Positions 22,465 to 37,700 of a DNA stretch of 41,811 bases are shown piece by piece; the first letter of the stretch is position 1; every line of letters starts with the position of its first letter. This stretch comes from Bryobacterales bacterium (GTDB lineage: Bacteria > Acidobacteriota > Terriglobia > Bryobacterales > Bryobacteraceae), in NCBI GenBank assembly GCA_003167255.1, contig PMTR01000068.1, positions 19,247-61,057 on the forward strand. Direction: 5' to 3'. The position numbers and the translations under genes were made by a program. The notes under the pieces are model-generated. The model was not told the origin of the DNA, made no database searches, and was given only the letters and a program-made list of their open reading frames with translations.

Positions 22465-22546
22465 GTTTCCCTATCATATAACCGATGCCCTAAAAGCGGC
22501 ATAGGCCGCAACCAAAGCACCAAGCCCGGAGGGCGACACAACCTAG

Positions 22547-22658
22547 CCCACGGCGTGAGCCGTGGGTCCCCGTAGCCAATTGAATAGCCCCGGAACGGGG
22601 CGAAAGAATCGCCGCGGTTAGAAACCCTTTCACCCATTCCCAGCGCTTGCGCGCTGGG
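22547..22658. repeat. Cluster of three tight extragenic palindromes
   Basis: Three small hairpins stand in a row in the 270-nt gap between the esterase and GH28-like genes: CCCACGGC-GTGA-GCCGTGGG (22547-22566), GCCCCG-GAA-CGGGGC (22587-22601) and CCCAGCGC-TTGC-GCGCTGGG (22639-22658). All stems are perfect, with 3-4-nt loops. This is the architecture of REP/BIME elements. I recall similar elements from Acidobacteria and Planctomycetes. The gap has no gene. Confidence 0.75.
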
Positions 22659-22736
22659 CTATTCTCTTTCGTCCTACGGACTCGGCCCGCCAAAAGCGTT
22701 GCGGCCTGCGAAGAATTCAAAGGGGCATAGTACCGC

Positions 22737-35343: not shown

Positions 35344-36243
35344 ATGGCAAAACTCGGTTTTCTCGGACTCGGTCTCATGGGCTACCCTATGGCCCGCAAC
35401 CTCCTCCGCGCCGGTCACGAAGTGGCGCTCTGGTCCAACACCCTCGATAAGGCCCGCAAACTGGCCGCCGAAGAGAAGGGCCGCGCCTTCGATACACCTC
35501 GCCAGGTGGCTGAAAATGCCGATTGCATTTTCCTCTGCCTCGGCGATACGGCGATGGCCCGCCAGGTCATCCTCGGCCCGGACGGCATCATCGAAGGGGC
35601 GCGCCCCGGTACCGTCGTCGCCGACGCCAGCACCATCAGTCCCAGCGAAAGCCGCAAGATCGGCCAGGCCCTCGCTGCCAAAGGTGTTGATTTTCTCGAC
35701 GTCCCCTGCACCGGCTCCACCCCGGGAGCCACCGGCGGCACCCTCACCTTCATGATTGGCGGCGACCAGGCCGTCTTCGAAAAGACCAAGCCCTACCTCG
35801 AACCCATGGGCAAACGCCTCTACTATTGCGGCGGCCCGGGCATGGGGCTGCAAGCCAAGCTCAGCCAAAACCTCATTCTTTGCAATCTCTTGATGGCCTT
35901 CAACGAGGGCATGGTGCTCTCGACCAAGGGCGGCATCGATCCCGACCTCATGCTCGAAATCCTCGACAACAGCGCCGCCAAGAGCGGCCTCATCTCCTAT
36001 AAAGCCCCCTTCGTCCTCGCCCGCGACTTCACCGCCAACTTCTCGACAAAGTGGATGCACAAGGACATCGGGCTCATGCTTGACTCCGGTCAGGAGCTGG
36101 GAGTACCACTCCTTTTAACCTCCCTCACCCATCAGCTTTTCCAGACAGCTATTTCCGCCGGGCACGCAAATGACGATATGTGCTCCACTATCAACGTGTT
36201 AGAGGAATTTTCCGGTACTCAGGTAAAATCCCAAAAAAAATAA
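35344..36243 (+). CDS. NAD(P)-dependent beta-hydroxyacid dehydrogenase family oxidoreductase (second)
   Basis: The 299-residue protein has the dinucleotide-binding motif GLGLMG at 8-13, the substrate-site motif DVPCTGSTPGATGG (119-132, close to the classical D-x-P-x-S-G-G), and catalytic K172 in LQAKLSQN. The family includes 3-hydroxyisobutyrate, tartronate semialdehyde and succinic semialdehyde reductases; the substrate here is not determined. TACAAT ends 9 nt before the ATG and no Shine-Dalgarno is present, so the message is probably leaderless. The last codons contain a run of eight A, which continues into the UP-element-like tract of the following RNA promoter. It is a paralogue of the gene at 1312, with only moderate similarity. 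Confidence 0.93.
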   Translation: MAKLGFLGLGLMGYPMARNLLRAGHEVALWSNTLDKARKLAAEEKGRAFDTPRQVAENADCIFLCLGDTAMARQVILGPDGIIEGARPGTVVADASTISPSESRKIGQALAAKGVDFLDVPCTGSTPGATGGTLTFMIGGDQAVFEKTKPYLEPMGKRLYYCGGPGMGLQAKLSQNLILCNLLMAFNEGMVLSTKGGIDPDLMLEILDNSAAKSGLISYKAPFVLARDFTANFSTKWMHKDIGLMLDSGQELGVPLLLTSLTHQLFQTAISAGHANDDMCSTINVLEEFSGTQVKSQKK

Positions 36244-36252
36244 TACATTTTT

Positions 36253-36281
36253 TTGTTGCTTCCAGAAACGGAATCTACTAT
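36253..36281 (+). promoter_or_regulatory. Strong promoter with UP-element-like tract for the candidate RNA
   Basis: TTGTTG (36253-36258) and TACTAT (36276-36281) are separated by exactly 17 nt. Immediately upstream is a run of eight A (36233-36240), TAATACA, and seven T (36248-36254), the A/T pattern of an UP element as on stable-RNA promoters. Predicted start near 36288. Confidence 0.6.
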
Positions 36282-36287
36282 TATTGG

Positions 36288-36463
36288 AAGTAAGCCGGGG
36301 AGGCAACTCCCACCAAAGCGAGACTAACCTCTAAAAAAAGACCCCTGAAGCAATCCTCCCCGGCACCCCCTTAAAGAGAGGATTAGAGGTCTCGAAGCCA
36401 AAATCTCCCATACGTCAATTTGTTCACCATGTGAACCTAAGTTTGGAGTCGAACTTCCCGGCT
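36288..36463 (+). ncRNA. Candidate structured RNA between the dehydrogenase and dxr
   Basis: About 176 nt with no open frame but dense pairing. A closing stem links 36293-36302 to 36454-36463 (10 bp, one G-U). The 5' arm can instead pair perfectly with 36355-36364 (GCCGGGGAGG / CCTCCCCGGC), or locally as GGGAG-GCAA-CTCCC with a GNRA loop (36298-36311). A central stem pairs 36319-36323 plus 36328-36334 with 36383-36394, with a 4-nt bulge. A small hairpin GTTCAC-CAT-GTGAAC is at 36422-36436. Length, the closed ends and a large asymmetric internal bubble with a small hairpin on its 3' side recall 6S RNA, but no 6S sequence signature was recognised. It could instead be a switch-like leader of dxr. 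Confidence 0.45.
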
Positions 36464-36506
36464 GCATGATATGATGGCGAATACGCTCGCCAATACGTGT
36501 GCCGGC

Positions 36507-37700
36507 ATGAAAACTCTCACCGTTTTGGGCTCCACCGGGTCGATTGGTACCAACACCCTGGACGTCGTGCGGCGCAGCCGCCACCAGTATCCGGTGTACG
36601 CCTTGGTAGCCGGCTATAACGTCGACACCTTGGCCGCCCAAATCGCCGAATTCCGTCCCCGCGTCGCGGTTGTCGCAACTTCCGACGTTTTGGCCCGTCT
36701 ATCAGAGAGGTTGTTGGCAGAGGGTTTGCCTCGCTCGGCTTGGCCCGAACTGGCTTTTGGGAATGCCGCTCGGGTCCAGGTGGCGACGGCCCCGGAAGTG
36801 GACGCCGTCATCTCCGCCATTGTGGGGGTGGCTGGCTTGGAAGCCACGTATGAAGCCGTCCGGCGCGGCAAACGGGTTGGTCTCGCCAATAAGGAAGTAC
36901 TGGTCTCCGGCGGCCAATTGGTGATGGACGCCGTTCGGGAATTCGGAGCGGAGTTGCTGCCCGTGGATAGCGAACACAACGGCGCCCATCAGTGCCTGCG
37001 GGCGGGCAACCGCGAGCAAGTCTCCCGCCTCATCCTCACCGCTTCCGGCGGCCCCTTCCGCAACACCCCCAAGGAAGCCCTCGCTTTCGTGACGCCCGAA
37101 CAGGCCCTCAATCATCCAACCTGGCGCATGGGCAACCGCATCACCATCGATTGCGCCACGCTGATGAACAAAGGTTTCGAAGTCATCGAGGCCTGCTGGC
37201 TGTTCGATTTCCTACCCTCCCAGGTCGATGTAGTGGTGCATCCCCAATCCACCGTCCACGCCATGATCGAATACACCGATGGCAGTGTGCTTGCTCAAAT
37301 CGCGGCGACGGATATGCGCATGCCCATCCAGTACGCCCTCACCTATCCCGACCGCTCGGAAGCTCCCGTTCCCAAAATCGATTGGACCCAGGCTCGTAAG
37401 TGGGAGTTCCTGCCGCCCGATTTCAAAAAGTTTCCCTTGCTCCAACTGGCCTACCGCTGCCAGGAGGCGGGCGGCTCCGCCACCTGCACATTGAACGCCG
37501 CCGACGAAATTGCCGTGGAGGCTTTCCTGGAGAGAAGAATCTCCTATCCGGCCATTTACGAAATCGTGTCCGAAACGCTGTCTAAGATGCCGTCGCGCAC
37601 CCCCTCAACCGTCGGCGAGATTCTGGAGATCGACCGCGAATCGCGGGCCCTGGCGCGCCAACTGGTAACCGCGCGCACCCCCGGCGCGGTCGCTGTGTGA
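36507..37700 (+). CDS. dxr: 1-deoxy-D-xylulose 5-phosphate reductoisomerase
   Basis: The protein is 397 residues from the ATG at 36507 (MKTLTVLGSTGSIGTNTLDV); the frame's earlier ATGs at 36471 and 36474 add residues not found in the family. It converts 1-deoxy-D-xylulose 5-phosphate to 2-C-methyl-D-erythritol 4-phosphate with NADPH, the committed step of the MEP isoprenoid pathway, in the cytoplasm. It shows the NADPH motif GSTGSIG, the metal/substrate site LPVDSEHN, ASGGPF, the flexible loop HPTWRMG, and DCATLMNKGFEVIEA. After SEHN it reads GAHQCL instead of the usual AIFQ, an unusual change next to the active site. TATGAT lies 31 nt before the ATG. The gene is 6 nt upstream of rseP, an order shared widely among bacteria. 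Confidence 0.97.
   Translation: MKTLTVLGSTGSIGTNTLDVVRRSRHQYPVYALVAGYNVDTLAAQIAEFRPRVAVVATSDVLARLSERLLAEGLPRSAWPELAFGNAARVQVATAPEVDAVISAIVGVAGLEATYEAVRRGKRVGLANKEVLVSGGQLVMDAVREFGAELLPVDSEHNGAHQCLRAGNREQVSRLILTASGGPFRNTPKEALAFVTPEQALNHPTWRMGNRITIDCATLMNKGFEVIEACWLFDFLPSQVDVVVHPQSTVHAMIEYTDGSVLAQIAATDMRMPIQYALTYPDRSEAPVPKIDWTQARKWEFLPPDFKKFPLLQLAYRCQEAGGSATCTLNAADEIAVEAFLERRISYPAIYEIVSETLSKMPSRTPSTVGEILEIDRESRALARQLVTARTPGAVAV

Follow-up and report, generated by a model that had tools for sequence, protein, structure and literature searches.

The 6S RNA, of about 180 nt, is built from a closing stem, a central bubble and a terminal stem. C-rich small RNAs that target Shine-Dalgarno sequences include LhrC of Listeria and RsaE/RoxS of Firmicutes. 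Both are points of comparison for a conserved element found upstream of dxr in a 41,811-nt stretch of the genome of a Bryobacterales bacterium (contig PMTR01000068.1; hereafter the window). The element resembles 6S RNA (RF00013) in that it appears to be an independent small RNA that occurs in single copy, is conserved over a wide range and has a closing stem, but its conserved unit measures 73 nt, has no conserved outer stem and bubble, and is not matched by the 6S model. With LhrC and RsaE/RoxS it shares its shortness, a promoter of its own and C-rich motifs in predicted single-stranded parts; it differs in having no Rfam match at cut-off and in the single large A/C-rich loop, which is conserved over its length.

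For the acidobacteria themselves, candidate non-coding RNAs have been proposed from sequence comparison, namely Acido-1 and Acido-Lenti-1 (RF01686 and RF01687; PMC2864571). The present element is likewise an acidobacterial candidate, but neither of these two families matches at its locus. Elsewhere in the window, Acido-Lenti-1 does occur above cut-off, at 22523-22566 (- strand, 41.1 bits) and 22639-22682 (+ strand, 44.1 bits), in opposite orientation and 72 bases apart. Solibacter-1 and Soil-1, from Solibacter usitatus or soil DNA, are again candidate motifs and carry no Rfam accession in the table that describes them (PMC2864571); they are known here by that description alone, not by sequence. 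The main text of PMC11109978 and PMC8632094 names neither Acidobacteria nor dxr. Among the literature matches listed, none describes this RNA and none reports a characterised small-RNA gene of these bacteria, which are mentioned in papers on riboswitches.

Rfam gives no match at gathering cut-off at the window locus, nor at the RNA in ten other loci, where the single match is a tRNA in L164. The sub-threshold matches at the locus, mir-454 (E 0.31) and eiav_FSE (E 3), lie far under their cut-offs and are rejected as chance; those in L161 (E 1.3 and 1.8) are equally far below theirs. On comparative grounds the element is best read as a new family of a known kind, an undescribed small-RNA gene kept through the order, by the measure of Rfam and of the papers listed.

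The conserved element is a short intergenic stretch between a 3-hydroxyisobutyrate-dehydrogenase-like gene (35344-36243, + strand; PF03446, PF14833) and dxr (36507-37700, + strand), for which homologues favour the ATG start at 36507 over the start at 36471 in the ORF list. It consists of a promoter and a 73-nt core on the + strand (36292-36364), which ends at 36364 and whose predicted start, at about 36292, is placed from the promoter, 7 nt after the -10 element. This is smaller than the extent of 36233-36463 proposed in the initial annotation. A blastn search with 36240-36500 finds matches in 46 of 61 relatives, the own genome, matched along the whole query, aside (35/37 in family f1, 2/2 in f2, 9/18 in f3 and 0/4 elsewhere in the class); all strong matches fall within positions 1-153 of that query and mostly end at 128-133. 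Among the aligned copies the core is almost letter-identical across f1 and the flanks are variable. In order, the blocks are AAGCCGGGGAGGCAACTCCCACCAAAGCGAGACTAACCTC, AAAGACCCCTGAAGC and CCTCCCCGGC, the first two separated by an A-rich linker that varies and the last two by a short spacer, and core lengths range from 66 to 79 nt. The + strand of 36292-36364 contains no ATG, GTG or TTG, and linker lengths differ by single bases among copies; no reading frame is therefore conserved, as the earlier claim that the region cannot code for protein had held. The predicted fold of 36280-36470 as a unit does not stand out from shuffled sequence (z -1.33; 24 of 200 shuffles fold at least as well), and that of the 73-nt core stands out more (z -2.71; 1 of 200).

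Two kinds of material underlie the counts below. Pair counts rest on three alignments (A1, A2 and A4). The counts for promoter, terminator, small 3' hairpin, dxr context, third partner, 12-bp stem, loop composition and the dxr tree come from a copy-finder that accepts a copy only if it has one of GACCCCT[GT]A and GACCCCT[GTA]A, together with CTC, CACC or CAAC, and one of eight patterns for the 5' strand. Because these blocks are fixed in the finder, no variation can be visible there, and statements on the blocks rest on the separate alignments.

A covariance model built from 55 copies (R1) detects the RNA in 112 of 399 genomes of the class, comprising 97 of 101 in f1, all 14 in its sister family f3, with families assigned by kinship, and one weak match; 107 of the 112 have a single match. 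In the phylum sample R1 matches 8 of 396 genomes; three matches are strong and all lie in f1, and the other five, at E 0.001-0.008, are at about chance level. A second model that includes diverged copies (R2) returns the same tally in the class (112/399), and elsewhere finds only the own genome in a phylum sample of 40 and six genomes, all f1, in a small class sample of 41. The class and phylum samples thus contain no convincing copy beyond the order, and by these searches the RNA is order-wide and, at their sensitivity, confined to the order. The dxr contigs that hold it are labelled Bryobacterales, Bryobacteraceae, Solibacteraceae and Candidatus Sulfopaludibacter, and also carry broader or other acidobacterial labels; we infer the name of the order to which its range corresponds. 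Tandem copies precede dxr in two loci, with two in L048 (2216-2909), where the promoter is repeated with both, and three in L167 (3682-4738).

A possible very distant copy was seen in a genome from another order of the class (G098, L170:3592-3684, + strand; 28.7 bits, E 5.5e-4 with R2). This intergenic candidate keeps CCAAAGCG, AACCUC and GACCCCUGA, and by eye its closing stem is changed to eight pairs that flank a 2x2 mismatch, four of the eight being A-U. A pattern derived from it post hoc is confined to G098 within the seven genomes of that order, and is also present in two viral contigs (L172 and one that by eye reads as open coding sequence). In the six order relatives of G098, no R2 match falls below E 2.5 and no blastn match below E 0.07.

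Upstream of the core the copies share a putative promoter. In the 71 copies with distinct cores, TTGC lies at -38 to -35 and TANNAT at -15 to -10 from the start of the stem, and this register places the -35 element of the window at TTGCTT (36256-36261, + strand) and the -10 element at TATTAT (36279-36284, + strand). The spacer is 17 nt, followed by 7 nt to an A two bases 5' of the stem. Conservation reaches 75-92% per position in TTGC and 83-89% at the four fixed bases of TANNAT in the -10 element, after which comes a conserved TGGAA. Several f2 and f3 copies offer an extended -10 reading (TGGTATNNT), and the copies of genus g38 are more variable. The hexamer pair with 17-nt spacing of the initial annotation thus stands, but its register (TTGTTG/TACTAT) lies 3 nt upstream of the conserved pair. 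Its description as strongly promoted is weakened by a plain consensus scan of 36000-36700, which lists no + strand promoter, and so not the conserved pair; the single site reported, 36493-36466, falls on the - strand (0.4 expected). What speaks for the promoter is that it is conserved and constant in position, rather than its consensus score, and a start signal conserved over 71 copies is what an independent small RNA would be expected to have. Around the -10 element (36274-36289 in the window, and in other f1 copies), a TATnC-like stretch before it and TGGAA after it are strongly conserved in f1, not in f2 or f3; together with TTCC in the spacer they could form an operator for a regulator of the RNA.

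The central structural feature is the stem P1, in which GCCGGGGAGG (36294-36303, + strand) pairs with CCTCCCCGGC (36355-36364, + strand) to form a 10-bp GC stem that closes a loop of about 50 nt. Paired cells amount to 99.3% in A1, which was not fitted to P1, and to 99.7% and 99.8% in A2 and A4, which were; slid controls in A4 reach 50-66%. Half of the ten pairs are changed on both sides in A4, in 22 cells, as many as in none of 500 shuffles. The number of further pair types does not exceed that of shuffles (445 of 500 as high in A4, 500 of 500 in A2). On a 66-row dxr tree, a G-C/A-U swap at pair 4 requires five changes, at least three of which are forced by supported branches, and three pairs contain G-U cells (1, 8 and 3 cells in A4). 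The compensatory changes that the annotated pairing of 36294-36303 with 36355-36364 called for in homologues are thus present, and the comparative evidence for covariation in the closing stem is strong, giving the putative RNA a conserved secondary structure.

Bases 36298-36302 of the 5' strand also form the 5' side of a small hairpin, P2, whose 3' strand is CTCCC (36307-36311, + strand) and whose loop is GCAA (36303-36306, + strand), mostly of the GNRA type and longer in some copies. P2 is 99.3% paired in A1, with no double changes, and 93.4% in A2, where one pair is changed on both sides in 8 cells, a cell count reached in none of 500 shuffles; the count of one covarying pair is itself not above shuffles (486 of 500). 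Ten cells of A2 are unpaired, the last pair being absent in six rows and the fourth in three, and the variable pair shares a base with P1. P2 also appears to be kept, with weaker support than P1. The two are mutually exclusive. Predicted folds of prefixes ending at 36315-36360 contain P2 (-9.4 to -11.4 kcal/mol), and that of the complete core contains P1 (-21.9 kcal/mol).

Three mutually exclusive partners had been assigned to 36294-36303, and of these the strand of the GNRA hairpin (36307-36311) and the perfect partner (36355-36364) are retained. For the outer partner at 36454-36463 the longest pairing averages 6.79 in 90 copies, against 6.35 after shuffling, and for a further 12-bp stem 6.44 against 5.89; both are at chance level, and neither pairing is accepted here. 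The term switch-like accordingly fits two of the three alternative pairings, which are kept across copies, and not the third or the 12-bp stem. The initial annotation had pointed to the correct site, in part on mistaken grounds.

When P1 is formed, CTCCC would be released as C-rich motif 1. It is followed by the near-invariant block ACCAAAGCGAGACTAACCTC (36312-36331, + strand), which contains motif 2 (ACCTC) and has diverged in g38, and by GACCCCTGA (36340-36348, + strand), which contains motif 3, is invariant in the 55 copies found by blastn and reads GACCCCU in the 34 rows of A2. The loop is rich in A and C: among 71 unique loops, A makes up 0.40 of the bases and C 0.35, with 0.12 for G and 0.13 for U. 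CCAC, CCUC and GACCCCU are shared throughout f1 and by most f3 copies and are shifted by one or two bases in diverged copies. Folding predictions leave the loop open in L161 and L150, with the conserved motifs single-stranded, and place small pairings within it in the window's own core as well as in L010 and L127. About 20 of its bases are near-invariant in f1, exceeding what a short seed commonly requires.

The 3' end is best defined in g38, in which an intrinsic terminator lies within 20 nt of P1 in seven of nine fetched copies; in L161 a 12-bp stem is followed by a 16-bp terminator (z -5.55). The consensus scan of 36000-36700 lists no terminator, and a canonical one is absent from the window's own copy and from most f1 copies. 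Overall, 17 of 90 copies are flagged, several of them far downstream and probably chance matches. A small hairpin directly 3' of P1 is seen in 57 of 90 copies (7.3 after shuffling), with a U run in some (L010, L122, L127). Its place in the window is 36365-36381 (+ strand), where the GCCC-GNRA-GGGT form is not seen. At about 4143-4175 in L161, directly after the RNA terminator, a second promoter-like stretch was noted by eye (TTGGCA, 18 nt, TATGCT); it is common to the same place in L152, L155, L156 and L162 and may start another transcript.

The position of the RNA next to dxr raises the possibility of a cis-acting leader or riboswitch, which would sense some signal and control dxr through alternative folds reaching to 36463. 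Context was counted within 500 nt for the 86 copies whose flank is long enough, and in 62 of them dxr follows in sense; in the window the outer pairing is predicted to win if the transcript extends to 36463. That outer partner, however, is the one not conserved over the 90 copies, and a constant position upstream of dxr is not observed, with 24 of 86 copies lacking the gene in sense. In three of the 24 cases the copy belongs to a tandem array, upstream of a last copy that itself stands before dxr. Several others face convergent genes (sulfatase-modifying-factor-like, aldo/keto reductase, amidohydrolase and 2-hydroxyacid dehydrogenase) or neighbour adenylosuccinate synthetase, AccD-like and TPP-enzyme genes. 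Two genomes have the RNA and dxr in divergent orientation (L027/L140 and L059/L165); L027 alone of these belongs to the 86.

Moreover, dxr probably has its own promoter, since an extended -10 element is enriched before it. In the window this element is TGATATGAT (36467-36475, + strand), separate from the RNA, and the earlier assignment of TATGAT (36470-36475) as the -10 of dxr is plausible. Of 60 loci with the RNA, 46 have the extended -10 (TGnTA, any two bases, A or T, T) before dxr, where shuffling gives 1.3, and 9 of 56 other dxr loci have it; this pattern was widened after the sequences of a narrower count had been seen. With that narrower list of hexamers the figure is 30 of 60, and the strict TGnTATnAT occurs in 33 of 60 (0.18 after shuffling). 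Some read-through from the RNA into dxr may still occur. Together with the terminators of g38 (7/9), these observations make a conditional leader for dxr, as once proposed, very improbable, and the 24 copies without dxr downstream in sense within 500 nt led to its rejection.

Of the readings that keep the RNA independent or dispense with it, a variant of 6S or SRP RNA missed by Rfam is the least probable. Occurrence as a single copy, a conserved promoter and an order-wide range are habits of housekeeping RNAs, but the 6S model finds no match at gathering cut-off, nor at E up to 5 in 36100-36600, and that of the bacterial small SRP RNA (RF00169) none at the locus at E up to 5. The genome also holds a 6S candidate elsewhere (C93, 39.9 bits, below the 46.4 cut-off) and an SRP RNA (C138, 75.4 bits, over cut-off). 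Both identities are rejected on this basis, including the 6S-like membership of the initial annotation, and the 73-nt length of the conserved unit points the same way. Hardly less remote is a DNA element, such as a protein-binding inverted repeat or a small mobile repeat. P1 is an inverted repeat in DNA too, and compensatory changes would also preserve a palindrome. Against this stand the single match in 107 of 112 genomes, a promoter and, in g38, a terminator oriented on the same strand, the G-U cells in three P1 pairs, natural in RNA and not in DNA, and the 46-59 bases between the arms, which are themselves conserved. More serious, yet still unlikely, is an independent RNA whose conserved loop binds a protein or small ligand in place of mRNAs. 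The near-invariant loop of f1 leaves room for such a partner, its blocks being conserved beyond the need of a short seed, and a ligand could drive the exchange between P1 and P2. Against it, the loop is A/C-rich, G-poor and predicted open in L161 and L150 (a point qualified by the small pairings noted above for three other cores), and no protein candidate has been identified, the 6S candidate and the SRP RNA lying elsewhere.

The reading preferred here is that of a small RNA independent of dxr, in which the stem holds out a loop poor in G and rich in A and C, and the C-rich motifs of this loop would pair with Shine-Dalgarno regions (probability about 0.6). That the element is an independent structured RNA gene with its own promoter, as the conserved start signal and the compensatory changes in P1 support, is very probable from the comparative record; that it acts in trans by base pairing is an evenly balanced proposition. 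The simplest inference to a trans-acting RNA that pairs with mRNA starts comes from the complementarity of the C-rich loop stretches to Shine-Dalgarno-like tracts and from the presence of Hfq in the genome, where three Hfq-like matches occur (C195:15701-15886, C91:6231-6398 and C108:46844-46993), two of them over the Pfam cut-off. Under the preferred reading, a vertically inherited gene would be transcribed, P2 would form first, and P1 would displace it once the 3' strand has been made. The finished RNA would present its G-poor, A/C-rich loop, and the CUCCC/CCCC, CCUC and GACCCC motifs would pair with Shine-Dalgarno-like purine tracts of mRNAs and control their translation, perhaps with the participation of Hfq. 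The exchange between P1 and P2 may set which C-rich strand is exposed, CUCCC or CCUCCCC.

A bolder extension, which must be considered rather unlikely, makes this exchange the core of an order-wide global regulator, whose folding state would decide which mRNAs are silenced. The G-rich strand would pass from the GNRA hairpin P2 to the long-range stem P1 and cover first one and then the other of two C-rich anti-Shine-Dalgarno strands, and the state would be set by a ligand, a protein or a target.

Encoding no protein, matching no catalogued family and carrying its own conserved start signal, the RNA is probably an overlooked regulator of the Bryobacterales. As a mostly single-copy RNA present in nearly every sampled member of the order, it is a strong candidate for a central regulator that can be tested in an isolate, where clean constructs could be built from the well-supported stem P1, the promoter as mapped and those g38 copies that carry a terminator.
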